The position numbers and the translations under genes were made by a program. From Paenibacillus sp. G2S3 (GTDB taxonomy: Bacteria; Bacillota; Bacilli; Paenibacillales; Paenibacillaceae), in NCBI RefSeq assembly GCF_030123105.1, contig NZ_CP126095.1, positions 2,914,001 to 2,978,000 of the forward strand: a DNA stretch of 64,000 nucleotides. Reading direction: 5' to 3'. This document shows, piece by piece, positions 22,353-58,548 of this stretch (position 1 is its first letter; each line of letters starts with the position of its first letter). The notes under the pieces are model-generated. The model made no database searches and was not told the DNA's origin. It worked only from the letters and a program-made list of their open reading frames with translations.

Positions 22353-22822
22353 TGGCTCGTTTACGTTACCTTCGGCAAATTGAATTCGGTTTTTCACATA
22401 CATTTGGCTTATTACGTTACCTTTGGCAAATAGTATTCGGTTTTTCGCATACATTTGGCTTATTTACGTTAGCTTCGGCAAATAGTATTCGGTTTTTCGC
22501 ATACATTTGGCTTATTTACGTTAGCTCGGGTTAATTGTATTCGATTTTTCACATACATTTGGCTTATTACGTTACCTACGGCAAATTGTATTCGGTTTTT
22601 CGCATACATTTGGCTTATTTACGTTAGCTCGGGTTAATTGTATTCGATTTTTCACATACATTTGGCTTATTTACGTTACCTACGGCAAATTGTATTCGAT
22701 TTTTCACATACATTTGGCTATTTACGTTACCTTTGGCACATTGTATTCGGTTTTTCGCATAGATTTGGCTCGTTTACGTTACCTACGGCAAATAGTATTC
22801 GGTTTTTCGCATACATTTGTCC
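22353..22822. repeat. Tandem repeat array 1 (about nine units of 51-52 bp)
   Basis: The landmark CATTTGGCT recurs at 22401, 22452, 22504, 22556, 22607, 22659, 22711, 22762 (GATTTGGCT) and 22814, so the period is strictly 51 or 52. Each unit reads roughly TTTACGTTACCT, CGGCAAATTGTATTCGG, TTTTTCGCATACATTTGGCT. The reverse complement is the unit of the larger array at 57571-58548. CGCATACA and TGTATTCG can pair across a T-rich loop, so every unit can form a hairpin. No gene is seen here. It starts 30 bases after the terminator of the M56 gene. Confidence 0.92.
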
Positions 22823-23000
22823 GTAAGCTCGACTAAAACATGTATTCTAAGGATTTAAGGTCCGCTCGGTCCGTCATCCCAAAGAGGCGTGTGCTTAATT
22901 AAAAACAGGGCCCCCATGGCCAATAGTTGAATATAGGCCCATCCCTTGAGTTCATTTCACATTTCTCCGCAATCTAGGAATTTTAAAAATTCTATTATAG

Positions 23001-23040
23001 CAAGCATAAACGCCTTTGGTGTTCTTAATAGGACGGTAGA
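23001..23040. repeat. Three-stem palindromic repeat element, diverged copy 2
   Basis: CAAGCATAAACGCCTT is identical to the reverse complement of the element at 7664-7715. The following TGGTGTTCTTAATAGGACGG matches it with a few changes, and the last arm has decayed. It lies immediately 3' of a broken gene on the minus strand. The rest of 22823-23000 shows nothing I can identify. Confidence 0.6.
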
Positions 23041-23042
23041 GT

Positions 23043-23285
23043 CTAGGCCATTGGCAGACCCAACTGTTTACGAAACTTATTCCGAACTACGACAGAAAGT
23101 GCATCTAGCTTGACAAGCTCTGCCTGAGCGTACGCCTCTTGAAGACCAATCTGCATAAGATGCAGTACATGTGATACGGATGCACCGCCAGCTCCATTTT
23201 CTTTTTTAACAATTACGTTACCTGCGAAATTTCTCCCCTTTATACTGATCTGACAATTTACAAAATTTGATATATTTAAAGAAAT
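23043..23285 (-). pseudogene. 5'-truncated gene remnant
   Basis: Reading minus, an 80-codon open frame runs from a TAG at 23286-23288 to the stop at 23043-23045. Its last 55 codons look like real protein: a glycine turn (ENGAGGASVSH), then an amphipathic helix HVLHLMQIGLQEAYAQAELV and RNKFRKQLGLP. No ATG, GTG or TTG occurs before the Met inside that helix, and the region where a start would lie is now the Fur promoter of the next operon. It is probably the tail of a gene whose front was lost. I do not recognise the family. Confidence 0.5.
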
Positions 23286-23288
23286 CTA

Positions 23289-23336
23289 TTGATAATTATT
23301 CTCATATGATTTAATATGATAACGATTCTCATTATC
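23289..23336 (+). promoter_or_regulatory. Fur-controlled promoter of the siderophore uptake operon
   Basis: TTGATA (23289-23294) and TAATAT (23312-23317) are 17 bases apart. A Fur box, GATAACGATTCTCATTATC (23318-23336), matches 16 of 19 consensus positions and covers the expected start of transcription. A second half-site, GATAATTATTCTCAT (23291-23305), overlaps the -35 spacer. Iron repression is expected. Confidence 0.88.
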
Positions 23337-23387
23337 ATTACTTTGCTATAAAGAATGATAAATAAAATAGAGACAGGGAGAGAGAAA

Positions 23388-24401
23388 ATGAATCAGAAAA
23401 AAGTTCTATTAGCAGGGGTATCAGCGGTCTTAGCTTTGAGTTTGGCGGCTTGCGGTAACAATGAAAAGGATAACGCAGCTTCAAAAAGTGCAAATAATTC
23501 CGCCGTAGCAGCAGAGGGAAATGCAAACAACAAAGAAAATGCGGCTCAGGAGGCAGTTGCCACTGAACAAACCATTACATATCTAGGTAAGGATTATGTA
23601 GTACCTGCAGAGATTCACAATATCGTAGCTGCAAGTCTGGAATCTATGGAAGATGCAGCAATCCTAGGAGTGAAACCTGTAGGCGTGCTAGCAATAGCAA
23701 ATGCTATTCCAGGTTATCTATCATCTGAATTAGCGGGTGCATCTTTAGTGGGGGATAAATTTGCTCCAAGTAATGAGGCGATCCTGCAGCTAGATCCAGA
23801 TGTTATTTTAGGGTCTTCCAAGTTTGGTGAAGATGTGTCAGGTGCGCTTAATAAAATTCAAACAATGATTCCTTATTCACATATCTCAACGAATTGGAAA
23901 GATAACTTGCTCTTATTGGGTCAATTATCTGGTAAGACTGCAGATGCAGAAAAGATTATTAGCGAATATGAAGCTAAAGCCGCAAGTGCAAAGGCTGAAG
24001 TAGGAGAAAAACTGAAAGATCAATCTATTTTAGTTATTCGTATTCGTGAGGGTAGTATGTGTGTGTATCCTGCGGGCGTATATCTGAATCCGGTTATTTA
24101 CGAAGATTTAGGTGCTACTATTCCTGAAGTTATAACAAATACTAAAGCTCAAGCTGAGCTTTCGCTAGAAGCTTTAGCGGAAATTAATCCGGACTATATT
24201 TTCTTGCAGTTTGAAACCAGTGAAAATACTGATAATGCAACAGCACTTGATGATTTAATTAAGAATCCGATCTTCAAAAGTGTAAATGCAGCCAAAAACA
24301 ATCATGTCTTTGTAAATGCTGTTGATCCGTTGGCGCAAGGTGGTACGGCTTGGTCTAAAGTAAGATTCCTGGATGCTGCAATTGAAAACCTGTTGAAGTA
24401 A
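23388..24401 (+). CDS. Iron-siderophore ABC transporter substrate-binding lipoprotein
   Basis: 337 residues from ATG 23388 (GGGAGAGAG upstream; the frame extends to 23355). A lipoprotein signal peptide ends LSLAAC, with the lipidated Cys near residue 22, followed by an Asn/Ala-rich linker. The rest is a FecB/TroA-like binding domain (IVAASLESMEDAAILGVKPVGV, LQLDPDVILGS, EINPDYIFLQFE). The context of two FecCD permeases and two trilactone-hydrolase-like esterases points to a catecholate siderophore such as bacillibactin (FeuA-like), which is inference. Confidence 0.92.
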   Translation: MNQKKVLLAGVSAVLALSLAACGNNEKDNAASKSANNSAVAAEGNANNKENAAQEAVATEQTITYLGKDYVVPAEIHNIVAASLESMEDAAILGVKPVGVLAIANAIPGYLSSELAGASLVGDKFAPSNEAILQLDPDVILGSSKFGEDVSGALNKIQTMIPYSHISTNWKDNLLLLGQLSGKTADAEKIISEYEAKAASAKAEVGEKLKDQSILVIRIREGSMCVYPAGVYLNPVIYEDLGATIPEVITNTKAQAELSLEALAEINPDYIFLQFETSENTDNATALDDLIKNPIFKSVNAAKNNHVFVNAVDPLAQGGTAWSKVRFLDAAIENLLK

Positions 24402-24414
24402 ATCCGAAGGTGCG

Positions 24415-25431
24415 ATGAATAAGATGAATACAAAAAATTGGAAAGTTATTTTGATCCTATCAACTTCTCCATTATTCATCGTCTTAGCAATGGTTGTATC
24501 CGTCTTATATGGTGTTAAGGATATTGGAATAGTAACAATCTGGCAGGCGATTACACACTTCGATGCGAATAATGTGGACCACAACATTATTATGACATCA
24601 AGATTATCGCGTGTAATCGCCGCTTTATTGGTTGGAGCGGCCCTGGCTGTTTCAGGGGCGTTGATGCAAGGCGTTACACGTAATTATCTTGCATCACCAT
24701 CGATTATGGGAGTAAATGACGGATCGGCATTTGTTATTACGTTGGCTATGGTGTTTTATCCTGGATTATCGAATGTGCATATGATTCTTTTATCTATGGT
24801 GGGTTCTGCTATCGGAGCGGGATTGGTTTTCGGATTTGGCTCATTGGTCAAAAACGGCTTATCTCCACTCAGATTGGCCATTATTGGTACAGTAATTGGT
24901 ACATTTTTAAGTAGTATTGCCTCTGCAATAGCGATGTTTTTTCAAGTTTCACAAAATGTTAGCGTGTGGTATAGCTCAAAAATACATACCGTGAATCCAG
25001 ATATGCTAATATTGTCCATTCCTTTTATAATCGTGGGTCTGCTCTTGGCGGTTAGTATTTCTAAATCTGTAATGGTTGCTTCCTTAGGGGATGAAACGGC
25101 AATTAGCTTGGGTCAACGGACAAAATGGGTGAAAATCGTCAGCATTTTATCTGTTGTATGTCTAACCGGAACAGCAGTAGCTTTAGTCGGTAAGATAGCC
25201 TTTGTGGGTCTAATTATCCCTCATATTACACGTTTTATCGTTGGTATCGACTATCGTTTCATCATTCCTTGCTCAGCAGTCATTGGGGCTGTTTTTTTAG
25301 CATTTTGTGATGTCTTAAGCCGGTATATTAATTTTCCGTTTGAGACGCCAATAGGCGTTGTGACAGCCTTTATTGGAATCCCGTTCTTCCTTTATTTAAT
25401 TCGGGTTAAGGGGGGAGAGCAACGTGGATAG
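24415..25431 (+). CDS. FecCD-type siderophore ABC permease, subunit 1
   Basis: 338 residues with about nine to ten membrane helices. FecCD signatures are SRLSRVIAALLVGAALAVSGALMQGVTRN near residues 60-90 and the ATPase-contact region ETAISLGQRTKWVK near 225. GKIAFVGLIIPHITRF is the conserved late segment. ATG 24415 and ATG 24424 are both possible; GAAGG favours the latter. The downstream permease overlaps by eight bases, showing translational coupling. It should pair with the next protein as a heterodimer. Confidence 0.92.
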   Translation: MNKMNTKNWKVILILSTSPLFIVLAMVVSVLYGVKDIGIVTIWQAITHFDANNVDHNIIMTSRLSRVIAALLVGAALAVSGALMQGVTRNYLASPSIMGVNDGSAFVITLAMVFYPGLSNVHMILLSMVGSAIGAGLVFGFGSLVKNGLSPLRLAIIGTVIGTFLSSIASAIAMFFQVSQNVSVWYSSKIHTVNPDMLILSIPFIIVGLLLAVSISKSVMVASLGDETAISLGQRTKWVKIVSILSVVCLTGTAVALVGKIAFVGLIIPHITRFIVGIDYRFIIPCSAVIGAVFLAFCDVLSRYINFPFETPIGVVTAFIGIPFFLYLIRVKGGEQRG

Positions 25432-26461
25432 AGGCAAAATACAGTTTAGTCGCTATATATTGACGCTATTAGCTTTTATCCTGCTAACACTTGTGGCGGG
25501 GTATTTTCATCTTACGAATGGCGCTTTTGATATGTCTGTCATGGATGTGATAAAAACGCTGCTGCGAATAGATCCCAATCCTAAATTTGACCTGGTTATT
25601 TTTCAATTTCGACTACCACGGATCATTATTGCGTCATTAGTAGGCATAGGTCTGGGGATGGCTGGAACGGTCATTCAAGGCATTACCCGAAACGGGCTGG
25701 CTGATCCAGGTATCCTTGGGATTAATGCCGGTGCCGGAGATGCCATCGTTGCATTTATGTTTTTCTTTCAGATGTCAGGGGTTACTTTTTTTAAAGAAAG
25801 CTGGTTTTCGATACTAGCCATGCCACTCTTTGGTTTTGTGGGGGGGCTTGCCGCAGTTGTGGTGATCTTTATTTTCTCTTGGCGGAATGGTGCACTTGAT
25901 ATGCAACGTTTGATATTGACAGGGATCGCGATAAGCAGTGGTTTTGGGGCGTTGTCGTTGTATCTTTCTCTAAAAATGAATGCAAGTGATTATGAAATGG
26001 CTGCGGTATGGAGTGTCGGAAGTATTTACAGCGCGAATTGGACTTATATCATAATGATCACGCCTTGGGTGCTGATTTTAGGATTTGTGATGTATCGAAA
26101 AAGCTATTTGCTTAATTATTTTCAATTGGAGGATTCCAGTACAAAAAGCTTGGGGATCTCCGTAGAAAAAGAAAAACTGATCTTTCTGTTATGCAGTGTG
26201 GGGATTGTAAGTGTCTGTGTATCTGTATCTGGTTCTATAGGTTTTATAGGATTGATGGCTCCTCACATCGCCAGAAGATTAGTAGGGATTAATCACCGCT
26301 ATATTATGTTATCCAGTGCAGTGGTTGGGATGTTTTTGCTTGTGATCTCAGATTATTTTGCCAAAACATTATTTCAGCCAGCAGAGTTACCCGTGGGTAT
26401 AGTCGTTTCGATTATTGGGATTCCTTATTTCTTATATTTATTAGCCAAGTCAAGAGTGTAG
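25424..26461 (+). CDS. FecCD-type siderophore ABC permease, subunit 2
   Basis: 345 residues, polytopic, with RLPRIIIASLVGIGLGMAGTVIQGITRNGLADPG and SIGFIGLMAPHIARRLVG as family landmarks. The GTG start at 25424 overlaps the end of subunit 1, with GGGGGGAG just upstream. No ATPase gene follows; the operon continues with esterases. In Bacillus the FeuBC permeases use a shared ATPase (YusV) encoded elsewhere, and the same is likely here. Confidence 0.92.
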   Translation: MDRGKIQFSRYILTLLAFILLTLVAGYFHLTNGAFDMSVMDVIKTLLRIDPNPKFDLVIFQFRLPRIIIASLVGIGLGMAGTVIQGITRNGLADPGILGINAGAGDAIVAFMFFFQMSGVTFFKESWFSILAMPLFGFVGGLAAVVVIFIFSWRNGALDMQRLILTGIAISSGFGALSLYLSLKMNASDYEMAAVWSVGSIYSANWTYIIMITPWVLILGFVMYRKSYLLNYFQLEDSSTKSLGISVEKEKLIFLLCSVGIVSVCVSVSGSIGFIGLMAPHIARRLVGINHRYIMLSSAVVGMFLLVISDYFAKTLFQPAELPVGIVVSIIGIPYFLYLLAKSRV

Positions 26462-26480
26462 GGGAGAGTGAGCAGCACAA

Positions 26481-27281
26481 ATGTCAACACAAGTAGAGCT
26501 CGAACACACAGAATCATGGAAGCTAGAATCTCACTATATGGGATACACGTATGATATAAAGGTTTCTCTACCAAGAGAAGAAGCACCCGAAAATGGGTTT
26601 CCCGTCTATTACATGCTCGATGGTAATTCCTACTTTCAATTGGGTCGGGATGTCGTGAAGTTGCAGTCAAGAAATGCGCCGAAAACATGGATTGCACCAG
26701 CCATCGTGATTGGTATTGGACATTATGGTTCAGATGAAGAGTTCTCTAAAAGAAGGTTTTATGATTTCACGCCTCCTGCAGAGCACTATGTATATCCGGA
26801 TCGATTGAAAAATGCTGATATAGGCCCACATGGTGGTGCTGAAAAGCTCCTATCTTTTTTAGAGTTAGAATTAATGCCGCTGGTTTCTGAAAAATATAAT
26901 GTCGATCAGCATAAGCAAGTTTTGTTTGGTCACTCATTAAGCGGGTTATTTGTTCTCTGGACGCTATTCACGCGTGCGGAGCTATTCCAGTATTATTTGG
27001 CCTCTAGCCCTTCGATTTGGTGGAATGACCATGAAATCCTGACGTATGCGGAGCAGTTCTATAACAAGGCTCAAACGATAAGACTAGAGAAACGAAAGCT
27101 ATTGATCACCGTGGGCAGTGAAGAGGCGTTTATGGTCGATGATGCTAAAGGATTATTTTCAAAATTGCATGAGTATTCATTGCCTGATTTACAGGTTGAG
27201 CATTATGTAGCGCCAGATGAAAATCATGCGTCAGTAGTGCCGACCATCATGAGTAGAGCGTTCCGTATGTTGAACCGTTAG
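26481..27281 (+). CDS. Siderophore trilactone esterase, BesA-like
   Basis: 266-residue alpha/beta hydrolase of the enterochelin esterase/YbbA group. The nucleophile elbow GHSLSG (Ser near 153) is followed by WTLF and the late SPSIWW segment. The catalytic His is probably in DENHAS near residue 250. No signal peptide is present, so it acts in the cytosol to open the imported ferric siderophore and release iron. It follows the permease by 19 bases in the Fur-controlled operon. Confidence 0.85.
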   Translation: MSTQVELEHTESWKLESHYMGYTYDIKVSLPREEAPENGFPVYYMLDGNSYFQLGRDVVKLQSRNAPKTWIAPAIVIGIGHYGSDEEFSKRRFYDFTPPAEHYVYPDRLKNADIGPHGGAEKLLSFLELELMPLVSEKYNVDQHKQVLFGHSLSGLFVLWTLFTRAELFQYYLASSPSIWWNDHEILTYAEQFYNKAQTIRLEKRKLLITVGSEEAFMVDDAKGLFSKLHEYSLPDLQVEHYVAPDENHASVVPTIMSRAFRMLNR

Positions 27282-27300
27282 GGAAGGGGAAGTGACGAGG

Positions 27301-28044
27301 ATGATGGTAGGAGAACTTACTGCTTTCGAACATATGGAGCGACAAATTACTGTGTATCTCCCTAAAGAATATCATTTCTTTACGGATAGGAAGTTCCCAG
27401 CGGTTTTCTTGCAGGATGGTGATTTCTTGTTCAAAGAGTCGATTGCAGCTATAGAGAACGACGTGGAAGAGGGAATAACAGAGCCGGTTATTTTTATCGG
27501 GATTGACTCTCAGCTGCGGAATGATGAATATACACCTTGGGAAATGCCTGCTCTTTTTAAGGATTGGTCCTTTGGGGGCAAGGGGGATGACTATTTGGAT
27601 TACGTCTATAAGGAGCTGGTTCCGTATATGACTCGTTCCTTTCGCATCTCTCATGAGTCTAGCAAATTGGCATTAGGTGGTGTTTCACTAGGTGGATTAA
27701 TAAGTCTATACGCGATGTACAAAACGGAGTCTATTTTTGATAACTTTATACTCATATCTGCGTCTGTGTGGTTTAAAGATTTTATACAGTACATGGAGAC
27801 TTCAAAGTTAGATAGGGAATGCAGAGTTTATATGTATGTAGGTGAACAGGAAGGTATCCACAAGACGAATGCACAGAAGGACATGGTGCCTAACAGCAAG
27901 CGCGTTTATGATATTTTAAAAGATAAGATAGACGCTGCTGATCAGCGTTTGAAGTTTGAGACAGATCCACTGGGCACGCATAATGACACGTTTTTCCTGC
28001 AATATTTTCCAAATAGCATCAGGTTCTTATTTCCCGCAAAATAA
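27301..28044 (+). CDS. Second esterase of the siderophore operon
   Basis: 247 residues from ATG 27301, preceded by AAGGGGA; GTG 27292 is possible but sits on top of that site. It is an alpha/beta hydrolase with nucleophile elbow GGVSLGG (Ser near 125) and a His in GTHNDTFF near the end. It resembles the Esterase_D group and is only distantly like its neighbour, so the pair is not a recent duplication. It may hydrolyse the same or a second siderophore, or partly opened product. Last gene of the operon. Confidence 0.82.
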   Translation: MMVGELTAFEHMERQITVYLPKEYHFFTDRKFPAVFLQDGDFLFKESIAAIENDVEEGITEPVIFIGIDSQLRNDEYTPWEMPALFKDWSFGGKGDDYLDYVYKELVPYMTRSFRISHESSKLALGGVSLGGLISLYAMYKTESIFDNFILISASVWFKDFIQYMETSKLDRECRVYMYVGEQEGIHKTNAQKDMVPNSKRVYDILKDKIDAADQRLKFETDPLGTHNDTFFLQYFPNSIRFLFPAK

Positions 28045-28049
28045 ATAAA

Positions 28050-28090
28050 AGGACGAGCAGGAGAGAGTATCCTTGCATCGTCCTATTTAT
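28050..28090. terminator. Terminator between converging genes
   Basis: AGGACGA (28050-28056) pairs with TCGTCCT (28078-28084), flanked by AATAAA and ATTTAT. Usable on both strands. Confidence 0.8.
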
Positions 28091-28101
28091 CTTATCTTCT
28101 T

Positions 28102-28635
28102 TTAGCTATGTTTCTGTAAATTCTCAAGATGTACGTCCAAATTATCAAAGGTTTGTGAAATACCCGGTAGCATACCCATATCAATTACTTGTTGTACCGC
28201 TTCTGGTGATGCGTATTTCCCGGTGTTAACCAGCTTCGTTTGACCATCCAGCTCGATAAAATCTAGTTGGACAAGCGTTTCAGGCAGATCTTCTGAAATA
28301 TTACCCTCTGCATCAGAGAACCAGTCCGTGTAAATAATTTGCTCCGGAATCGTAATTTCCCGATAAAGCGCCTTGCCCCAAGACTCCATGCCATAGAAAT
28401 CGCCTTGATTCTTATCCTCACATTTCATGCAATAATGCCAAGTGCCCCCTGGACGAAAATCGACATGGCACACGGGAAGTGTCCAACCTTTTGGCCCCCA
28501 CCAGTGCTTCAAATGCTCAGCCTCAGAAAAAGCTCTAAAAACTAGCTCACGTGGAGCTTTAAAAATACGCTCTAATATTAGAGTACTGCCTTCAACTTTG
28601 GATACTAGCTGGTTGGTTTGGTTAGAATTTGTCAT
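28102..28635 (-). CDS. SRPBCC/AHSA1-domain protein
   Basis: 177 residues, a single START-like (AHSA1) domain: LERIFKAPRELVFRAFSEAEHLKHWWGPKGW, then FRPGGTWHYCM, and a C-terminal long helix (QTFDNLDVHLENL). This fold binds small hydrophobic ligands; members next to ArsR genes are common, and their ligands are unknown. It is encoded 18 bases after the ArsR-type gene and surely cotranscribed. Confidence 0.9.
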   Translation of the reverse strand: MTNSNQTNQLVSKVEGSTLILERIFKAPRELVFRAFSEAEHLKHWWGPKGWTLPVCHVDFRPGGTWHYCMKCEDKNQGDFYGMESWGKALYREITIPEQIIYTDWFSDAEGNISEDLPETLVQLDFIELDGQTKLVNTGKYASPEAVQQVIDMGMLPGISQTFDNLDVHLENLQKHS

Positions 28636-28653
28636 TGGATAAATCCTCCTCGT

Positions 28654-28986
28654 TTACTTTTCCTTATCTAATTCCTCGCTCTGTAGCTTCTGCAAATAAT
28701 CATCCAGCCGATCGTATCGTTCCTCCCACATATGGCGGTAGGATTCTAACCAAACGTCTAATTCCTTAAATGGATCAGGGCGGAGCTTGCAAATGCGCCG
28801 GTTAGCAATAGCTTGAACTTCAATAAGTCCCGCTTCACTGAGGACACGCAAATGCTTGGACGCTTGAGGCTGCCGCAGCTGAAGACTATCCGCGATCTCT
28901 CCAACAGTTAAGGGATTCTCGCGTAATAGCTCGACGATCTGCATACGATTAGGCTCAGCTAAAGCACTCATTACGTTAGTATTCAT
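28654..28986 (-). CDS. ArsR family transcriptional regulator
   Basis: 110 residues from ATG 28986. The winged helix is complete: EPNRMQIVELLRENPLTVGEIADSLQ, then QPQASKHLRVLSEAGLIEV. The metal-binding ELCVCDL-type cysteines of metal sensors are absent (only one Cys, in RICKLRP), so it is unlikely to sense metals. Paired with an SRPBCC protein, a frequent arrangement in Firmicutes and Actinobacteria. It is the first gene of the pair. Confidence 0.92.
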   Translation of the reverse strand: MNTNVMSALAEPNRMQIVELLRENPLTVGEIADSLQLRQPQASKHLRVLSEAGLIEVQAIANRRICKLRPDPFKELDVWLESYRHMWEERYDRLDDYLQKLQSEELDKEK

Positions 28987-29214
28987 AAACAAACATCACT
29001 TCGATTCATTGAATTCATTCGTATTTCATATGACGAGGCGAGATAGAACGACTCAACAGCGCCTACTTCCTTGTATTTCCTATTCGTATTTACAATATAC
29101 CACGGAGTGAATATTCCTGTAAAGGGATATATAGAGTATTCATTGTATGATAACTTCAAAAGTAGGGCATAGTACAAGCATTACGTAGAAATATGTTCCA
29201 TGATAACCAGTAAA

Positions 29215-29310
29215 CTTTACAAAAAACATAGGAATAGATATAATTAAGCATAACTTATCGGTTTTAGATGTACGCAAGGGGCCTAACGCCAGTAGGCTCC
29301 TTTTGTATTT
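29215..29310 (+). promoter_or_regulatory. Promoter and early terminator-like hairpin ahead of the Usp-mrp operon
   Basis: TTTACA (29215-29220) and TATAAT (29239-29244) are 18 bases apart. About 25 bases past the expected start, AAGGGGCCTA (29276-29285) can pair fully (one G-U) with TAGGCTCCTT (29293-29302), followed by TTTTGTATTT. There is no plus-strand gene upstream to terminate, so this looks like an attenuator in the leader. The remaining 28993-29214 region holds only the ArsR promoter area. Confidence 0.6.
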
Positions 29311-29339
29311 CTTGGCCATGTTACAGGAGGGTGAAGGTC

Positions 29340-29969: not shown

Positions 29970-30102
29970 TCGGGCGTGCCCTTATCTTCATGAGGGCCTA
30001 TTATTTAGGGCCCTTCCAATCATATGATCTTTGGCTTTTGGTAAAAAAGTAAGTACTAAAGTTCACAACTTGATAAGCTCAAGTGGAAAAGGAGGACTGC
30101 CT

Positions 30103-34771: not shown

Positions 34772-34776
34772 ATACT

Positions 34777-35967: not shown

Positions 35968-36003
35968 AACAAACCCGCGTCTACACGCGGGTTTGTTTTT
36001 TTT
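35968..36003 (+). terminator. Intrinsic terminator of the mrp operon and target of the intron
   Basis: AACAAACCCGCGT (35968-35980) and ACGCGGGTTTGTT (35985-35997) form a perfect 13-bp stem with a T8 tract. The group II intron begins within two bases of its end. Confidence 0.95.
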
Positions 36004-36569
36004 AGTGCGCCCAGCATGGGCGCTATCTATAGGGTTGAAGTCCCGAATGGCGAAGGCAGTAGTAGCCATTAGTCTAAGGCAAGGGTGTCCACCGTGAGGT
36101 GGAATCTGAAGGAAGCCGGCGGCAAATCTCCGGTCTGAGGAACACGAACTTCATATAAGGCTAGCGTACGTTGGGTGAGGTTGCTAAACAAACTAAAACC
36201 CTTACTGCCAAAGGTGTGCGAGAGTAAATGAAGCAGATAGATGGAGAGGAAGATAGCGTTCTTACCTGGGGAGATCTGTACGGAACGCGGAACAACTTCC
36301 GTAACCTTACCTGTGAAGGTAAGCTGAACGTACAGAAGTCAGCAGATGCCATAGTACGCCCCGTGGTGCAACACGGGCGGAAGGGCTGAACATGAAATAG
36401 GTATTTGTATATCCAGGCGTTCGAGATGAGTGATGAAAGCAGAAAAAAAAAATCCGTAAGGACCTAACTGAAGAAGGAAGCGGTGAATCCCGTGGGGGAC
36501 TTCAGCAGGGCTGAATTCATCTTTGGCACAAGAGGAAGATGCAAATCACGTAAAGAGAGGTAAAAAAAA

Positions 36570-37832
36570 ATGTTGGAGCAGTTGCTGTCACGGGAAAATC
36601 TTCTGCAAGCCTTAAAGCGTGTTGAAGCCAATAAAGGAAGCCATGGCGTAGATGGCATGTCCGTAAAATCCTTACGAAAACACATCGTACAAAACTGGCA
36701 AACCCTACGGCATGCGATAGAAGAAGGAACCTATGAACCGAGCCCCGTACGACGGGTCGAAATCCCGAAACCGAACGGCGGAGGTGTCCGGATGTTAGGG
36801 ATACCTACCGTGACAGACCGAATGCTTCAGCAAGCCATTTCGCAGGTGGTAACCCCATTGTTCGATCCACAGTTTTCCGAGCACAGTTATGGATTTCGTC
36901 CCAAAAGGCGGGGACATGATGCGGTGAGGAAAGCTAGAGAATTCATGAAAGAAGGATATCGATTCGTAGTCGACCTAGACTTGGAGAAATTCTTTGACCG
37001 CGTCCACCATGACCGTCTTATGTTGAAGATTGCGGAGAAAGTGAAGGACAAGAAGGTCCTCTTACTTATTCGTAAATATCTTCAATCGGGCGTGATGGAG
37101 AATGGATTAGTAAAGCCGACATTAGAAGGAACGCCGCAAGGGGGGCCCTTGAGTCCGTTATTAACTAATATTGTACTGGACGAACTGGATAAGGAACTGG
37201 AGAAACGTGGACACCGATTTGTGCGCTATGCGGACGACTGTAATATCTACGTGAAAACTCCGAGAGCAGGTGAACGAGTCAAAGCATCCGTCACTGGGTT
37301 CATTGAGGGAAAGCTAAAACTCAAGGTAAACCAAGGCAAGAGTGCGGTAGACCGCCCCTGGAAACGGAAGTTTCTGGGTTTTATTTTTAGTGTGGACCAA
37401 GTGCCAAAGGTGAGGATAGCACAGCAATCCTTGCAGAAAGCGAAGGTTAGAATTCGAGAGATAACCTCTCGAAAGAAGCCGATGAAGATGGAAGAGCAAA
37501 TCCAGAAACTAAACCAATATCTTATGGGATGGTGTGGGTACTTCTCGCTAGCGGATACACCAAGTAGCTTTCGAGACATGGATAAGTGGATACGAAGAAG
37601 GCTAAGAATGTGCCTATGGAAGCAATGGAAGAACCCGAGAACCAAAGTCAAAAGACTAATATCCTTAGGCGTACGCAAGGATAAAGCGGATGAGTGGGGA
37701 AATACCCGAAAAGGGTACTGGCGAATTGCAGGGAGTCCAATTTTGTCACGAGCATTGAATAACCGATACTGGGAAACCAATGGACTTAAGAGCTTAATGG
37801 ACAGATACAACTTACTACGGAATATTTCATGA
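36570..37832 (+). CDS. ltrA: Group II intron reverse transcriptase/maturase
   Basis: 420 residues. RT motifs are all present: GVDGM, RMLGIPTVTDRMLQQAI, YGFRPKRRGHDAV, VVDLDLEKFFDRVHHDRLM, GTPQGGPLSPLL, and the active site YADD at 220-223. The maturase (X) region follows, ending near residue 410 with NTRKGYWRIAGSPILSRALNN. There is no HNH endonuclease domain, as expected for class C introns. AGAGAGG precedes the ATG. The protein helps splicing and carries out target-primed insertion. Confidence 0.95.
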   Translation: MLEQLLSRENLLQALKRVEANKGSHGVDGMSVKSLRKHIVQNWQTLRHAIEEGTYEPSPVRRVEIPKPNGGGVRMLGIPTVTDRMLQQAISQVVTPLFDPQFSEHSYGFRPKRRGHDAVRKAREFMKEGYRFVVDLDLEKFFDRVHHDRLMLKIAEKVKDKKVLLLIRKYLQSGVMENGLVKPTLEGTPQGGPLSPLLTNIVLDELDKELEKRGHRFVRYADDCNIYVKTPRAGERVKASVTGFIEGKLKLKVNQGKSAVDRPWKRKFLGFIFSVDQVPKVRIAQQSLQKAKVRIREITSRKKPMKMEEQIQKLNQYLMGWCGYFSLADTPSSFRDMDKWIRRRLRMCLWKQWKNPRTKVKRLISLGVRKDKADEWGNTRKGYWRIAGSPILSRALNNRYWETNGLKSLMDRYNLLRNIS

Positions 37833-37868
37833 ACCGCCGTATACCGAACGGTACGTACGGTGGTGTGA
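37831..37868 (+). ncRNA. Domain V of the group II intron
   Basis: GAACCGCCGTATACC, a GAAC tetraloop-like turn, and GGTACGTACGGTGGTGTG form the catalytic hairpin. It contains the CGC form of the triad, which is typical of class C introns. It starts one base inside the reverse transcriptase stop codon. Confidence 0.85.
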
Positions 37869-37931
37869 GAGGTCGGGGGCTCACCGCCCCCTCCTACTCG
37901 ATTTCATGGAGTTTTATTTTTTGTTAACATC

Positions 37932-45971: not shown

Positions 45972-45982
45972 GGGGGATTAGG

Positions 45983-47688: not shown

Positions 47689-47700
47689 ACGTAAATAAAA

Positions 47701-49346: not shown

Positions 49347-49348
49347 AA

Positions 49349-49398
49349 AAAAAGAAGCTCTCCTGAAGTTCAATTGAACTTTGTGGAGGCTTTTCTTA
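49349..49398 (+). terminator. Terminator of the MFS gene
   Basis: AAAAGAAGC-CTCC near 49350-49364 pairs with GGAG-GCTTTTCTT (49384-49396), with an inner AGTTCAATTGAACT palindrome. Confidence 0.8.
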
Positions 49399-49420
49399 AT
49401 TAGAAAAAAGGAGACCGACA

Positions 49421-49606: not shown

Positions 49607-49629
49607 AGGCTAGCAGTCCCTACGTTGCA

Positions 49630-51903: not shown

Positions 51904-52118
51904 AGAAAGTTGATCTCCCCTCGATAGAAATACGCTTAGTTTTGAGCAATACTTGCGCTGATCAGTCGCTTAACGCGTCCTTGATTCAATCTACCAAAAT
52001 ATTCTATTAAATGCAATTTGGCCAAATGATAGAGACTATTAAAACGTGGATGCTTCTAGGTACTCTGCAAGTATTATCATCTTCGAGTTCTTGTTTGTAG
52101 ATTGTTTTGCAAAAGAAC

Positions 52119-52164
52119 GCAAAAAGGACTGAACCGGGATCTTACTAATGACCCAGTTCAGTCC
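52119..52164 (-). terminator. Terminator of the exported-protein gene (minus strand)
   Basis: In the 311-base gap 51904-52214, GGACTGAAC-GGG (52126-52138) pairs with CCC-GTTCAGTCC (52151-52163). On the minus strand the stem is followed by TTTTTGCG. The rest of the gap holds the SecA2 promoter region and nothing else I can identify. Confidence 0.88.
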
Positions 52165-52214
52165 ACAAAACTACTTATCCAAATTCCTCTATGAGATGAA
52201 CCGCTAGAATAATC

Positions 52215-53297
52215 CTATTTGCCAGCTTCTGCTTCTTCATAGATAAGGCATCGAAGAGTCTGATCTGGGTAGCGTAGCTCTGCAGTATAACTGCTGCCAT
52301 CTTCGAGCAACATTTTGACCGCTACCATGCCGCGTTTATTATTTACGTCAGTGTCTGTCAGGGAAGCCATGACGATTTTTCGGGTTTCTCCTTGTCTGTC
52401 TGTAACTATTTTTGTAGCCTCGTTAATCCAGGTTGCATCCTTTTGGACAGCGATGGCAGCTTCAGCATTGATCGGGGTTCTTGTGAGTGAAAAATTAGCT
52501 GCGGTCGTATCTACTACCGTCCGGGTGGAGGGATCAATAATTACGGTATATTGCCAAAATTCCTTACCTTGTCCTCTTAAGGTGTTGGTTTTATAAGGGG
52601 TGAAGATTACCATCCAGGTCTTTTTCTTTGATAGCATGGATTCTCCTTGGCTTGCTTTTACTTCAAGCTTGGAGACGTCAGCTCCGAATATTTTACGCAC
52701 GCTTGAAGCAGCCATGGCGACGGCGTCGGTCTGGCTCAAATTCCCTGTGTCCGGAGGGGTTACAATCTTCCGCTTGGACAAGGCATAAGCCTCCCGGTAG
52801 AACCAGTCAATATATTGTAACAGTTCCTCGTCAGTCAATGTCCGATTCGGATACTTGAGCGTGTTTTTCTCCAAGTCTAAATAAAACTCCGCTTGTCCCG
52901 ATTTTAACGGGAACAGCTGCTTGGGACGAAGGCCGTCATACACATACTGGTCTTCCAATATCAGCCTCCGGTTTATTTCATCCTCGGTCATCTCCCTTCC
53001 GATGGTGATAATTTCGTTATTGGGCTTGTCCGCAAAATCGTAAATTTGCTGCATTTCTTCTTGGGTCATCAGCTGCTCTAGATCTCTGTTCACAGTAGAT
53101 ACCGGAGCTTCTGCTTCTACTTTTAATACGGGTGCCTTGCTGCTGGTCAAGGCTAGATTGCCCGAGTTTTGTACTGCAGGAATGCTCTTGGCGGCGGTGG
53201 TATTCACAAATCCTGGGACAATCATTGCGCTCACCGCTAGCACGCTTCCAGAGAACAAGAGTACAGTGAGTGTAGCGGAAATCTTGCTGTTCTTCAT
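52215..53297 (-). CDS. Exported protein of a two-component operon, unknown function
   Basis: 360 residues. A signal peptide or membrane anchor spans residues 8-30. The mature part has two similar alpha/beta units around residues 175-350 (SQTDAVAMAASSVRKIFGADVSKLEVKAS and later NAEAAIAVQKDATWINEATKIV), suggestive of PepSY-like repeats; I cannot assign it firmly. GGAGGTTAAG precedes the ATG. It follows the histidine kinase by 61 bases and ends at a strong terminator, so it is probably the third gene of that operon and may be a sensor accessory or target. Confidence 0.7.
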   Translation of the reverse strand: MKNSKISATLTVLLFSGSVLAVSAMIVPGFVNTTAAKSIPAVQNSGNLALTSSKAPVLKVEAEAPVSTVNRDLEQLMTQEEMQQIYDFADKPNNEIITIGREMTEDEINRRLILEDQYVYDGLRPKQLFPLKSGQAEFYLDLEKNTLKYPNRTLTDEELLQYIDWFYREAYALSKRKIVTPPDTGNLSQTDAVAMAASSVRKIFGADVSKLEVKASQGESMLSKKKTWMVIFTPYKTNTLRGQGKEFWQYTVIIDPSTRTVVDTTAANFSLTRTPINAEAAIAVQKDATWINEATKIVTDRQGETRKIVMASLTDTDVNNKRGMVAVKMLLEDGSSYTAELRYPDQTLRCLIYEEAEAGK

Positions 53298-53358
53298 TTA
53301 ACTTAACCTCCATTGGGATCGGATGATGATGAATCTTCCTAACCTTAATCTAAAGATG

Positions 53359-54762
53359 TTATAGAGTAGGAGGGCAGTTGTTATAGAGTTGTAAAAAGAG
53401 TTTGATGCTAGTTCCCTCGCCGAGGACAGAGTTTAAGATCAGCCTGGCCTTATGCGCTTCAGCAATTTGCCGACATAGGGATAATCCTAGTCCTGCGCCG
53501 CCGTATTCACGTGAACGAGCCTGGTCTCCCCGGTAGAACGGTTCAAACACACGTTTAGCCATCTCTGTGGTGATTCCGGTTCCCGTATCACGGATTTCTA
53601 GCACGGCTTCTCCATCCAGCTCATAGGCCAGCATGTGGATTTCGCTGCCTTGCTTGGAGGCGTGAATTGCATTCTCAACCAGATTTACCAATAATGAAGC
53701 TAGTAAATCGGGATCTGCCCAGACATTTAGAATCGTATGGTGGACATGAAATCTTATGCCAGCATCCGTCAATTTTGGACGCTCCGTCTCTTGGATAGCT
53801 TGAAATAGTTCCGAAATATCCACCTGCTGAAGATCCAACGGCTGATGCCGGAGGACAGACAAATCCAGCAGCTTGAAGGCCAGATTCTTGAGACGAAGGG
53901 TTTCACTAAGAATATAGCCGCCCGCAGTTTGCTGTTCTTCCTGTCCAATATTGGCCGTGGTCAGAAACTCGGCGAATCCCTGCATGCTGGTCAAAGGCGT
54001 GCGTAACTCGTGGGCCAAATTATCCACCATCCTCTGTTTCTCTTCCGCCATGTCCGAGAGTTCGGTAACCCGCTGCTCCACGGCCTCCGCCATCCGGTTG
54101 AAGTTCAGGGCCAGTTCGCCAAATTCATCTTTGCTGCGCAGCTGCACCCGTTTCGTATAGTCGCCTCCGGCGATCGTTTTGCTGGTCTCTGACAGGAGCT
54201 TTAGCGGTTTGCTAAGATGCCGGATTAGCAGATAAAGAAGTAGTAGGAGAACGGGTCCCACGATCCAGTTAATCATTACAAAAAAGCGGTTTAGTTCCTG
54301 TTGCTTATTGAAGAGCTCACTGATATCACGCTGATAGACAAGCAGCACATGCTGGTAAGGAGCAGGAAGCTGAGTAGAGAGCTGAATAGAGCGTTCGTCT
54401 GAGGATTCAGGCTGACTGCCTTTTCCAAAATCTGATTTCCCGAATTGACCTTTTTGGGGAGGGTAAATCATTCGGTCGTTCTCCCATAGCTGTAAATAGA
54501 TTCCCTGCTTACGGTAGTAATCTCCATAGGACTCAGAGACGCTGGCCAGTAGAATAGGGGTCAATGCCGTTCCCCGCGCTTGAATAGAATTAAGGTTCTC
54601 ATAAATATTGTTGGCGATTAACAATTGCTCACTGGATGCTCTCTGCATTTCACTATCCATGTTTAGCTGCCAGCTTTTTTTCATCACCATAATGACACTT
54701 ACATCCAGAGCGGCAATAAAGAGAGCGAGTACCGACAGTAGAATCTTATGCCAGAATCTCAT
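53359..54762 (-). CDS. Membrane sensor histidine kinase
   Basis: 467 residues. Membrane helices at about 5-27 and 160-182 enclose a 130-residue outer sensor region. HAMP (about 183-235), HisKA with phospho-accepting His251 in LAHELRTPLTS, and an HATPase_c domain (N-box NLVENAIHAS, G1 DTGTGI, G2 GGAGLGLSLC) follow. Its start lies two bases after the response-regulator stop. It phosphorylates the neighbouring OmpR-type regulator. The signal is unknown. Confidence 0.94.
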   Translation of the reverse strand: MRFWHKILLSVLALFIAALDVSVIMVMKKSWQLNMDSEMQRASSEQLLIANNIYENLNSIQARGTALTPILLASVSESYGDYYRKQGIYLQLWENDRMIYPPQKGQFGKSDFGKGSQPESSDERSIQLSTQLPAPYQHVLLVYQRDISELFNKQQELNRFFVMINWIVGPVLLLLLYLLIRHLSKPLKLLSETSKTIAGGDYTKRVQLRSKDEFGELALNFNRMAEAVEQRVTELSDMAEEKQRMVDNLAHELRTPLTSMQGFAEFLTTANIGQEEQQTAGGYILSETLRLKNLAFKLLDLSVLRHQPLDLQQVDISELFQAIQETERPKLTDAGIRFHVHHTILNVWADPDLLASLLVNLVENAIHASKQGSEIHMLAYELDGEAVLEIRDTGTGITTEMAKRVFEPFYRGDQARSREYGGAGLGLSLCRQIAEAHKARLILNSVLGEGTSIKLFLQLYNNCPPTL

Positions 54763-54764
54763 GA

Positions 54765-55424
54765 TTAGCTCTGAACTTCCAGGCGGTAGCCTAGCTTGAA
54801 AATGGTTTTGATCCGTTCTTCCCAGCCCAGCTTTTTACGTAGCTGCCGGATGTGAACATCCACGGTGCGGGTGTCGCCCTCAAAATCATAGCCCCACGCC
54901 AATTCCAGCAGCTTTTCCCTCGACAATGCAATATTCCGGTTCCGAATTAACACCTCAAGCAGCTCGAATTCCCTAACGGTCAAATCAACCGGTGTCTGAT
55001 CTACTAAAACTTGCCGTTCCAGGTAACGCACCTCAACATTATCGCAAATGAAGCTGGAGGTACCTTTTTCACACCTGCGCAGGACTACATTGATTCTTGC
55101 CAGCAATTCGAGGATTTCAAATGGTTTAATGATATAATCATCCGCGCCCAGCTCGAAGCCTTTAATGCGGTCAGCCAAAGAATTCTTGGCGGTGATCAAA
55201 ATCACTGGAACCTGCAAATGTGCAATCTGTTGCATCACCTCAAAACCATCCAATTCCGGAAGCATAACATCCAGCAGAATCAAATCAGTTTTTTCACGCT
55301 CCAGAATTTCGAAAACCTCCGGTCCACGGTAAGCCTTGCTATATGTATGTCCAACCAGCTTGAGATTCATTGTAATTAAATCACTGATCGCTCGTTCATC
55401 TTCTACTACCAATATATTTGCCAT
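54765..55424 (-). CDS. OmpR family response regulator
   Basis: 219 residues. The receiver domain has the acid pocket EDE (8-10), phospho-acceptor Asp52 in ILLDVMLPELDGF, Thr near 78 and Lys100 in YIIKPFEI. The C-terminal winged helix includes LTVREFELLEVLIRNRNIALSREKLLE and VDVHIRQLRKKLG. AGGAGGAG precedes the ATG. First gene of the regulator-kinase-exported protein operon. Confidence 0.95.
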   Translation of the reverse strand: MANILVVEDERAISDLITMNLKLVGHTYSKAYRGPEVFEILEREKTDLILLDVMLPELDGFEVMQQIAHLQVPVILITAKNSLADRIKGFELGADDYIIKPFEILELLARINVVLRRCEKGTSSFICDNVEVRYLERQVLVDQTPVDLTVREFELLEVLIRNRNIALSREKLLELAWGYDFEGDTRTVDVHIRQLRKKLGWEERIKTIFKLGYRLEVQS

Positions 55425-55698
55425 TCCTAATTTCTCCTCCTAGTACCTTACTTACTATATGCCACTTCCGCTATACACTATATACAACTAGAGGAAGGAT
55501 TGTCCAGAAGGTTGATAGTTTCATCAGGCGATAATACCTACTAGAATAGAAAGTATGTGCTGAACTGTTACCTTAACAGTACAAACTGTTATATTGGTCT
55601 TCCATCTATCATGAAAATATTTACAAATATAAACTGTTGATATCGAATACATCTGAGAAACTCCAGTATGAGGTATACGGGCCACCTGCAGCACCGCC

Positions 55699-55735
55699 AG
55701 CACATTCGGGCAGTCGTGACGCACAGGAGCTAGCT
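55699..55735 (-). pseudogene. Short rhodanese gene remnant
   Basis: AGCACATTCGGGCAG here is identical to 58711-58725 of the intact rhodanese gene, and the flank shows weaker similarity. On the minus strand it still reads CPNVLA, as in the rhodanese active-site region. No full gene is left. The rest of 55425-55866 has no gene I can support. Confidence 0.4.
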
Positions 55736-55866
55736 CTGTACTCTAATGGTTTACTTGGCACAGACAAGGTTAGCGTCATAGAGTGATATCCTCAGGTTGC
55801 TGGATAATACGAACGTTTGGATTTTAGAGCGTTTGCTTCAGATGTTGGCGACGAATTGATTGTACG

Positions 55867-55897
55867 TAAAAAGCTGCCCAAACTTCCCGGGCAGCCT
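55867..55897 (-). terminator. Terminator of the small minus-strand gene
   Basis: On the minus strand GGCTGCCC (55889-55896) pairs with GGGCAGC, then TTTTTACG. It supports a real transcript from the gene at 55928-56185. Confidence 0.85.
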
Positions 55898-55927
55898 CTC
55901 ATATTCTTACGCGTACGTCTTCTGAGA

Positions 55928-56185
55928 TCAAGCCGTTTGCGCCTCATGTTTGCGAGCTGTTACAGTGTCTTCTTTTTCCGTGGATCCGTTGTCCTGACGC
56001 TTAACTGCTTCCTCGTCTCGTACCCCATTCAATTCATGCTCGTTCTGATGAAATTCCTTGAGTATATTCTGGTAAATATGAGCCTCTTGAAGGTTCAGTC
56101 CGTCGCGATTTTCTTTCAAAACCCAGTTCTCGACCGTTTTCTTCAAGATTTCGCTCTTCCGTTCCAGCAGTTCCGTATAACTCAA
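55928..56185 (-). CDS. Small hydrophilic protein
   Basis: 85 residues, helical, very charged, no cysteine or membrane segment (starts MSYTELLERKSEILKKTVEN; the tail is rich in Glu, Lys and Thr). The TTG start at 56185 has AAAGGATG upstream. A promoter-like ATTATA/ACCCAA pair (56285-56313 on plus) and a terminator frame it. The 227-codon frame on the other strand is a shadow. I recognise no family; sequence and signals together argue that it is real. Confidence 0.6.
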   Translation of the reverse strand: MSYTELLERKSEILKKTVENWVLKENRDGLNLQEAHIYQNILKEFHQNEHELNGVRDEEAVKRQDNGSTEKEDTVTARKHEAQTA

Positions 56186-56284
56186 TTTACTTCATCCTTT
56201 CCGGTTCATGGTTTCAAACGCCGGATGGACTTTGTTTACTTGTCAGTTCGTGCGTTTAACATCACATCCGACGTAACGTTTACC

Positions 56285-56313
56285 ATTATACAGAAAATCC
56301 TGGTCGAACCCAA
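56285..56313 (-). promoter_or_regulatory. Promoter of the small minus-strand gene
   Basis: On the minus strand TTGGGT (56313-56308), 17 bases, then TATAAT (56290-56285). The -10 is perfect and the -35 weak. It gives a leader of about 90 bases. Confidence 0.5.
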
Positions 56314-56505
56314 CGCGGACCAACCGTCCTCAGATAGGGTGAGCGCTACTCAGAATGGAACGGGAGTCCTCAGCGGACCGTTTCGCAGAAGTGCGGCCGG
56401 ATACTCCGGTATGCTGACAGTTGCTTCTCTTTCATATAATCGTTTAATCAGATATAAAGCACGCGCTTTTAACTCTAATCTCCCTCAAGAGCAACCGTAA
56501 TTCCC

Positions 56506-56600
56506 ATACGAATCCCAATCACTCTAACTTACTGCATACAGTTGTATATTCGTATATCCTGCCTTCTCCAGCCTTCTCCAGCGATAATACCCCCGGGCGG
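56506..56600 (-). pseudogene. Rhodanese gene 3'-end remnant
   Basis: Positions 56506-56569 align base by base with 58641-58703, the 3' end of the intact rhodanese gene, with roughly three quarters identity and shared runs such as CAATCACT and GCATACAG. A one-base deletion breaks the frame. It is a decayed duplicate. The remainder of the gap 56186-56860 contains the small gene's promoter, the hairpin at 56779 and no other gene. Confidence 0.7.
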
Positions 56601-56778
56601 CCAGTTGATGAAAATGGAAAGTAAACTCTGAAATTGGAAATGATGATGTATGCCATATGAAAATGTATTAATAGTGAAAATATTAATTGTTTTGAATGAT
56701 CCTGCCGATTTCCTATTGTGCATTCTAATGATAATGTGGCACACTATGTATAGATAAAACCAAACGAGGCAAAGAATG

Positions 56779-56817
56779 CCCCGTCTCCTTTCCTTTTGGA
56801 ATAGAGGCGGGGTTTTG
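56779..56817 (+). terminator. Terminator-like hairpin upstream of the nuclease-like gene
   Basis: CCCCG-CTC (56779-56787) pairs with GAG-CGGGG (56804-56812), then TTTTG. No plus-strand gene precedes it, so it may be a leader attenuator for the gene at 56861 or a leftover of a lost gene. Confidence 0.6.
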
Positions 56818-56860
56818 TATGATTAAAAACATATTTCGTTGCAGAGCGAGGGGATAGGTA

Positions 56861-57544
56861 ATGGGTTTCGAGAGGGAGCATAATGAATGGTTATGTAATC
56901 ATCTTAAACAAAGGAAGGGAGAACGGCTCGATGCACTTAAACGCGGTCATGGTTACGGAAACCGCTTGTTTGTCGAGCGGGTGTGGTGGCCTCTAGCCGG
57001 ACATTTTCACGGATTACACCCAGAATATGAAGTTAAGGACTGGCGCGGCAGATCCTATTTTGTGGATGTATTGTGGGAGATCGGAGCCTCGCGTATTGCA
57101 TTTGAGATCATGGACTATGGCTCACATGGAACGGATCGTAGCAAATACCGGATGGACTTGAACCGCGGGCTTTTTCTACAGTCTCAAGACTGCACGGTGC
57201 TCTATATCTCGCTGGATGAGCTAAAAGAAAATCCATCCTTCATTCTCTCCGCGCTGCAGAACATTCTCTTTTCTTATTTGTTAGCAGAAAAGTCTCCGAA
57301 GATAACCGCTGAGAGAGCCTATTCCAGAATCGAGCGTGATCTGATGCGGGCAGCCATTCGGCACCATCGTGTCCTTCGCCCGGCTGATGCCGCGAGAGAG
57401 CTGGAATTGCACACGATGACGATCATTAAATACTGCCGTCAGCTGGTGGATAAAGGTAAATTTCGCCCGGTGGCAAGAGGTTCATCTCAGCGGATCATTT
57501 ACTATGAATATATTGGCACACTACAAAGTCCAGATTTGGTTTGA
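56861..57544 (+). CDS. Putative nuclease-like protein with C-terminal helix-turn-helix
   Basis: 227 residues. Residues about 60-125 (YFVDVLWEIGASRIAFEI, then YGSHG and a Lys/Asp/Arg helix KYRMDLNRGLFL, ending VLYIS) recall the D-ExK core of the DUF559/VSR-like restriction endonuclease fold: Asp in FVDVLW, Glu in AFEI. The C-terminal 75 residues form a predicted helix-turn-helix (RPADAARELELHTMTIIKYCRQL). AGGGGAT precedes the ATG. Its stop lies 27 bases before the large tandem array. The nuclease assignment is by motif only. Confidence 0.55.
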   Translation: MGFEREHNEWLCNHLKQRKGERLDALKRGHGYGNRLFVERVWWPLAGHFHGLHPEYEVKDWRGRSYFVDVLWEIGASRIAFEIMDYGSHGTDRSKYRMDLNRGLFLQSQDCTVLYISLDELKENPSFILSALQNILFSYLLAEKSPKITAERAYSRIERDLMRAAIRHHRVLRPADAARELELHTMTIIKYCRQLVDKGKFRPVARGSSQRIIYYEYIGTLQSPDLV

Positions 57545-57570
57545 AGATGAAGTCCGTCGTGAGAATGTGA

Positions 57571-58548
57571 ATGGAAAATCGAATACAATATGCCGATGGT
57601 AGGTAAACGAGCCAAATGTATGCGAAAAATCGAACACAATGTGCCGCCGGCAAGTTGAACGAGCCAAATGTATGCGAAAAATCGAATACAATGTGCCGAT
57701 GGTAGGTAAACGAGCCAAATGTATGCGAAAAATCGAATATAATGCGCCGCCGGCAAGCTGAACGAGCCAAATATATGCGAAAAACCGAACACAATGTGCC
57801 GCCGGTAGGTAAACGAGCCAAATGTATGCGAAAAACCGAATACAATGTGCCGGCGGGAAGTTGAAGGAGGCATGTGTATGCGAAAAACCGAATACAATGT
57901 GCCACCGGCAAGCCGAACGAGCCAAATGTATGCGAAAAACCGAATACAATGTGCCACCGGTACCATAAACGAGCCAAATGTATGCGAAAAATCGCATACA
58001 ATGTGTCGCCGGTAACGTAAACGAGCCAAATGTATGCGTAAAATCGAATACAATGTACCACCGGTACCATAAACGAGCCAAATGTATGCGAAAAATCGAA
58101 TACAATGTGCCGACGGTAGATAAACGAGCCAAAATAAACGAGCCAAATGTATGCGAAAAACCGAATACAATGAGCCAACGGTTGGTAAACGAGCCAAATG
58201 TATGCGAAAAACCGAATACAATGAGCCACCGGTACCATAAACGAGCCAAATGTATGCGAAAAATCGCATACAATGTGTCGCCGGTAACGTAAACGAGCCA
58301 AATATATGCGGAAAATCGCATACAATGTGCCCCCGGTACCATAAACGAGCCAAATGTATGCGAAAAATCGAATACAATGTGCCGCCGGTAACGTAAACGA
58401 GCCAAATGTATGCGGAAAATCGAATACAATGTGCCACCGGTACCATAAACGAGCCAAATGTATGCGAAAAACCGAACACAATGTGCCACCAGCAAGCCGA
58501 ACGAGTCAAATATACGTGAAAAACCGAATACAATATTTTTCCAGTATG
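57571..58548. repeat. Tandem repeat array 2 (about 19 units of 51-52 bp)
   Basis: AACGAG(CCAAATGTATGCG) recurs at 57606, 57658, 57709, 57761, 57812, 57864, 57916, 57968, 58020, 58072, 58123, 58137 (a truncated 14-base unit), 58188, 58240, 58292, 58344, 58396, 58448 and 58500. Each unit continues AAAAATCGAATACAATG, TGCC and a variable 8-9-base link (GGTAACGTA, GGTACCATA, GGTAGGTA, GGCAAGTTG or GGCAAGCCG). TGTATGCG and CGCATACA (or CGAATACA) pair around an A-rich loop. It is the reverse complement of array 1 and fills the gap between convergent genes. It shows no variable spacers of CRISPR type. Confidence 0.95.

Follow-up and report, generated by a model that had tools for sequence, protein, structure and literature searches.

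A 51/52-bp tandem repeat of Paenibacillus whose arrays mostly point with replication

MIRU, STAR and bcr elements are intergenic repeat units of variable number, and to our knowledge none has a replication polarity comparable in strength to that of the repeat considered here, a 51/52-bp tandem unit forming two arrays (array 1 and array 2) in a 64,000-nucleotide stretch of Paenibacillus sp. G2S3 (NZ_CP126095.1, positions 2,914,001 to 2,978,000), hereafter the window. Its own genome, one contig of 6,698,229 bp, is called G000, and other G numbers denote the genomes compared with it. Pneumococcal BOX elements are built as boxA-boxB(n)-boxC, and the part of their description consulted puts 60.8% of them on the leading strand, mirroring the coding bias (PMC3049150). 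As described there, BOX is like the Paenibacillus repeat in being dispersed and intergenic, with end modules around a tandem module of varying copy number; the likeness of leader, tandem module and tail holds only for copies in G000, G093, G094 and G007, as array 2 has no leader and the arrangement was not shown in G111. The two differ in polarity (60.8% on the leading strand against about 93% here, compared by description and not by sequence) and in the 51/52-bp phase, no fixed phase of this kind being mentioned for BOX in that part of the source. In Pseudomonas fluorescens SBW25, five tandem REP arrays run forward around 2 Mb and six in reverse around 4 Mb, with spacings of 112 and 72 bp, and REPs are linked to RAYT transposases, according to the sections used of the report (PMC3116915). 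These too are tandem arrays of palindrome-like units; the Paenibacillus unit is an imperfect dyad in which a G·A mismatch is common, and 2/27 window cores are perfect. The repeat belongs to a known kind, the interspersed intergenic repeat with tandem modules, and is unusual in its replication polarity, in a phase that stays fixed across sequence-divergent linkers and in the existence of a second family that behaves alike.

Orientation relative to replication was assessed from the position of dnaA, located in ten genomes. Since the B. subtilis dif consensus had no match in the ten genomes at up to three mismatches, the point opposite dnaA was taken as the terminus. Matches within 3 kb were merged into one array; the census was complete for its pattern in G063, used exact matches only in G087, G095, G113 and G115, took 100 of 627 matches in G111, and in G007 followed leader matches with E below 1e-10, where units were checked in part. 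Among the matches listed, 115 of 124 arrays in nine genomes (about 93%) pointed with replication, which bears out the non-random relation to replication raised by an earlier, sequence-only reading of the window. Leaving out one doubtful entry, a lone near-match at about 6.354 Mb in G028 (L099, with no unit by a later rule), the count is 114/123. By genome, arrays with replication numbered 27/27 in G063, 8/8 in G087, 5/5 in G113, 3/3 in G115, 11/12 in G095, 4/5 in both G000 and G028, 32/36 in G111 (among the matches listed) and 21/23 in G007 (by leader), and the nine exceptions include two in G111 within 36 kb of the terminus point and one in G007 within 160 kb of it. GC skew is positive in seven of eight blocks of the window, and the plus strand is therefore the leading strand here. 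Array 1 is the sole exception among the five arrays of G000; its orthologue in G007 also runs against replication, and its counterparts in G093 and G094 have the same strand and a similar place (a comparison of strand only). The opposite orientation of arrays 1 and 2 is accordingly no paired design, array 1 simply being the polarity exception of its own genome.

Gene direction does not explain this bias, because arrays follow replication in convergent and tandem-anti gaps as well. For this comparison we drew on 64 arrays picked from five genomes (G000, G007, G028, G063 and G111), which is no census and counts orthologous arrays separately, so that p-values come out too small; two weak arrays were dropped, other tandem arrays were masked, and genes were taken as the longest open frames rather than from annotation. 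At these loci 259/382 open frames ran with replication against 58/62 arrays, the latter divided into 18/19 in convergent, 4/4 in tandem-anti, 5/5 in divergent and 31/34 in tandem-co gaps. Without masking, the count was 59/63 overall and 19/20 in convergent gaps (p = 2e-5). The orientation could be a by-product if arrays were tolerated after terminators, genes ran mostly with replication and purine-rich strands suited the leading strand. That roughly two-thirds of the open frames run with replication, that the array strand is purine-rich in 64/64 arrays, and that divergent gaps rarely hold arrays (2/48 with clear neighbours and 5/62 in the masked count) would all fit, but the convergent and tandem-anti counts are not derivable from gene direction, and with the gene fraction of 0.678 as reference 58/62 has p = 1e-6, a value that is too small since orthologous arrays repeat; we regard a by-product as very unlikely.

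Many arrays also stand just downstream of a terminator. A same-strand terminator was detected within 160 nt upstream of 29/64 arrays, compared with 8/64, 7/64 and 9/64 control positions and a random background of 56/1160; in these 29 arrays the first core lay 6-120 nt from the T-run (median 64), and the signal came mostly from G111 (15/23) and G063 (12/27). According to the part of the source consulted, group IIC introns take sites immediately downstream of intrinsic terminators and enter the lagging-strand template (PMC8919778). The window itself holds a group II intron with a reverse transcriptase (Table 1), lying directly after a hairpin and T-run (about 35971-36003) and running with replication; its placement and size suggest class C, and it obeys the same placement rule as most arrays. 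The arrays resemble group IIC introns in a sense strand on the lagging-strand template, the orientation of 115/124 arrays among the matches listed, and may resemble them in the upstream same-strand terminator (29/64 against 7-9/64 in controls); they differ from them in being tandem and in having, at the loci searched, neither intron RNA domains nor a reverse transcriptase. We infer that terminator placement and fork-directed orientation are most simply traced to one cause, entry at hairpins in the lagging-strand template. The reading that we prefer, at a probability of roughly 0.42, is a dispersed non-coding Paenibacillus repeat that entered the lagging-strand template at terminators and then expanded in tandem. 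Copies would have entered single-stranded lagging-strand template near terminator hairpins, as reported for group IIC introns, and units would then have multiplied locally, perhaps by slippage or unequal exchange, while the core would be kept since the machinery that spreads or maintains the repeat recognises it. Machinery of the group IIC type is a candidate for this, by behaviour only.

Copy number does change locally, because matching arrays differ in their number of units: array 1 has nine units here, nine in G093, seven in G094 and six in G007, and two further sets of matching arrays have, in the order G000/G093/G094, 16/11/10 and 23/10/10 units. Many arrays in G000, G093, G094 and G007 are part of a larger element, whose conserved leader measures about 180 nt in complete copies and starts a short way past the T-run of a terminator-like stretch, and whose tail has a terminator-like hairpin at its end. 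A 226-base query from the array-1 leader region was matched at 97% in G093, 95% in G007 and 93% in G094. If leader, variable units and tail were transcribed together they might form a BOX-like structured RNA acting on neighbour genes, and the anatomy of the copies in these four genomes would suit such an RNA, as would the RNA folding energies, which are more favourable than the mononucleotide-shuffle mean for the core in 36/43 arrays and for the linker in 32/43. Yet orientation tracks replication rather than genes, terminators stand upstream of many arrays, pairing is not kept by compensation, and BOX itself, as far as the consulted text goes, is only 60.8% on the leading strand, in line with coding bias (PMC3049150), which makes a structured RNA of this kind distinctly unlikely.

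A pattern search of G000 gave 74 core matches, all within five arrays (Table 1), and none for the negative control, the core pattern read backwards. Core matches were found in 30 Paenibacillus genomes out of the 100 searched, with 1 to 427 units each and at least 10 units in 22 of them (control none in all), in agreement with the prediction that further copies would occur in the same and related genomes. Among 23 genomes from other genera of the same order, three had one match each with one mismatch, which is chance level, and one exact pattern searched against named genomes returned seven stretches, all from Paenibacillus phytohabitans or P. tengchongensis. We recognised no description of this element in the literature searched. 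Some array positions may be old, since arrays adjoin related genes in G000 and G063 (L062 and L095; L065 and L093). An imperfect palindromic core with lagging-strand polarity would also be compatible with a REP/REPIN-type element moved on the lagging-strand template by a Y1 transposase (RAYT or IS200/IS605), a past and since lost transposase included, and the tandem REP arrays of SBW25 are, in the sections of the report used, oppositely oriented on two genome sides (PMC3116915). Against this, no match to PF01797 was found in G000, G063, G064, G093, G094, G109, G110, G111, G116 or G119, and genomes without PF01797 made up 10/22 carriers of at least 10 units and 34/78 other genomes (Fisher p = 1.0). 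In contrast to the RAYT-linked arrays of SBW25, ten of the 22 rich carriers are without a Y1 transposase, and the other 12 have one; a resident Y1 transposase is therefore not required, and we consider such an origin highly improbable.

Array 1 was placed by Tandem Repeats Finder at 22353-22819, with 9.0 copies of period 52, and array 2 at 57575-58534, with period 51/52; the units of the two are reverse complements of each other. Together with the core matches (nine in array 1, and 18 in array 2 besides a first unit without its left arm) this confirms two arrays of one family. Units in the 64 arrays were found by allowing up to four mismatches to the core, a rule that favours conserved cores and skipped a unit in only 2/312 steps. 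Neighbour spacing was 51 or 52 bp in 304/311 steps, 165 of these 311 being 52 bp, so that the strict phase described from the window stands for nearly all steps and fails at one 65-bp step in array 2, every other step in both window arrays being 51 or 52. About 34 nt, GCC[A/G]AATGTATGCGAAAAACCGAATACAATGTGC, are conserved across species, and the linker, which makes up the rest, varies by array with its length kept. Within arrays, per-site deviation from the array consensus was 0.036 for the 22-nt core against 0.119 for the linker; over 43 arrays the ratio was 0.30 (bootstrap 0.24-0.37), with the core below the linker in 40/43.

The proposal that every unit folds as TGTATGCG...CGCATACA did not hold, perfect 8-bp arms being present in 2/18 array-2 cores (one mismatch in 11) and in 0/9 array-1 cores (one mismatch in 1). 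The usual right arm is CGAATACA, which places a G·A mismatch in the stem. Of 375 units, 322 have G·A at pair 5/16 and 134 have A·C at pair 3/18, where compensation is rare (8 G-T and 1 G-C); these counts rule out a perfect hairpin with compensatory stem changes, which the sequence-only reading had proposed to look for. The three loop As are constant in the 64 array consensus sequences, except at one position in one or two of them. For the units of this family that were folded singly as DNA, z-scores were -1.86 to +0.25 on either strand. Taken together, the unit looks more like an imperfect dyad that may be read by a protein or by an enzyme working on folded single strands than like a conserved RNA helix. 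Some G111 arrays (L116, L117 and L118) carry a variant core, TGTAATCG...CGATTACA, that comes closer to a perfect palindrome. A CRISPR array was rejected, as linkers are largely common to the units of one array rather than unique spacers, and so was a protein-coding repeat, because 52-bp steps shift the frame; a minus-strand open frame across array 2 had no Pfam match.

A second tandem family, unlike the first in sequence but also of 51-bp period, was noticed at five G063 loci (L068, L073, L081, L085 and L089), adjoining or near the first; in two G063 loci it directly adjoins the first in the same orientation. Its pattern matched 85 times forward and 23 times in reverse in G063, 43 and 7 times in G095, and not at all in G000 or in the control. 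Among the matches listed (100 of 108 for G063), 28/28 arrays of this family in G063 and 14/15 in G095 ran with replication, the sole G095 exception being a single match. Alternatively, the repeat may be a polar chromosomal element under selection, in which a core at a 51/52-bp phase is bound by protein or folds as a single strand on the lagging-strand template, for example in priming, fork restart, or nucleoid or segregation functions, and arrays in the reverse orientation are lost. Two families of different sequence with a common 51-bp period and polarity, a core that is kept across species and varies less than the linker within arrays, an array strand that folds better than its complement in 59/64 arrays (one core shared by descent), and arrays adjoining the same genes in several species would all be expected of such an element. 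It would not be essential to the genus, there being only five arrays in the 6.7 Mb of its own genome and matches in 30/100 genomes, and no binding protein was identified. The motifs GAGAAGGG and GGGNAGGG, guide motifs of the SpoIIIE/FtsK type, also lend it no support: in 19,506 nt of arrays the polar translocase motif GAGAAGGG did not occur, and GGGNAGGG had 6 occurrences on the array strand and none on its complement. We hold selective retention of a polar element to be somewhat unlikely but a serious alternative; some function is indicated by the period that two families have in common and by the lower variation of the core. A broader version, in which phase and polarity rather than sequence are maintained and 51/52-bp-period arrays form a class of at least two families of one-orientation, replication-directed elements on the lagging-strand template, is in our view unlikely.

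Several findings weigh against entry at terminators followed by tandem expansion. No terminator was detected for 35/64 arrays, and G000, G007 and G028 together had one in 2/14; the leader, where present, puts the terminator beyond reach of the 160-nt detection window. No mobility gene was identified among the neighbour genes, which were clustered without annotation of the clusters, and leader and tail are too short for a reverse transcriptase. There was no blastn similarity between the element and the window's intron, and no Rfam match at the gathering threshold (L061, L063 and L078); with E up to 1 (L127, L129 and L145) there was no intron match and only one weak small-RNA match, just before a leader. 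An element near 4.44 Mb in G093, also present in G094, follows a terminator-like stretch, and the matching place in G000 is empty apart from one terminator-like hairpin, which speaks for such entry; but the filled site has terminator-like sequence on both sides (judged by eye), unlike a simple intron-like insertion, and the same place in G007 has units without an aligned leader. The flanks of 23 arrays in G111 share little (8 matches), so that no common mobile unit is shown there. Lastly, because some arrays stand at orthologous loci of distant species, retention may be more important than insertion.

The position of both arrays 3' of genes, as first described, is true and incomplete: array 1 is antisense to both of its gene neighbours, and array 2 lies between two convergent genes. 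The terminator-like repeat at the array-1 leader has more copies in G000, G093, G094 and G007 that are separate from arrays (matches confined to about query bases 2-54), and another copy was noticed near window positions 7675-7712. A pair of Penicillinase_R-type and M56/BlaR1-type genes (19726-22250) lies just ahead of array 1. Relatives of the protein encoded at 56861-57544 are named DUF559; its C-terminal part matches AbiEi_4 weakly, short of the Pfam cut-off, and it is 97% identical to a P. odorifer protein. G028, G063 and P. tengchongensis have homologues of its gene at array loci, and a rhodanese/sulfurtransferase homologue also adjoins a G063 array. We rejected the DUF559-related gene as cognate to the array; since its homologues are widespread in Paenibacillaceae, Cohnella included, this looks like a conserved position rather than a cognate pair.

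Table 1. Arrays and neighbouring features, by position in the window or, for the array list of G000, in the genome.
Feature	Position	Strand	Remarks
Array 1	22353..22822	-	nine 51/52-bp units; against replication
Array 2	57571..58548	+	18 cores and one partial unit; with replication; no leader seen
Array-1 leader, conserved	22823..22999	-	about 180 nt; first bases TATAATAGAA
Terminator-like dispersed repeat directly 5' of leader	23000..23043	-	boundaries by eye
Hairpin and T-run between M56/BlaR1-type gene and array 1	22298..22323	+	by eye
M56/BlaR1-type gene	20187..22250	+	array-1 neighbour; outside element
Group II intron with reverse transcriptase	36005..37902	+	outside element; start by eye
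DUF559-related protein gene	56861..57544	+	directly 5' of array 2
Rhodanese/sulfurtransferase gene	58608..59444	-	convergent on array 2
G000 array	near 1.739 Mb	+	16 core matches
G000 array (array 1)	near 2.936 Mb	-	9 core matches
G000 array (array 2)	near 2.972 Mb	+	18 core matches
G000 array	near 4.823 Mb	-	8 core matches
G000 array	near 5.772 Mb	-	23 core matches

Tolerated mobility, or an influence on genes close by, is the usual explanation for intergenic repeats in bacteria; here the orientation follows the replication fork even against both neighbours. That most of the arrays checked point with replication suggests that an agent able to sense the fork places or retains them. The repeat provides a comparison case for the earlier account of tandem REP arrays in opposite orientations in SBW25, and a natural system, in soil bacteria, in which to study how the lagging-strand template controls the entry, growth and survival of short repeats.

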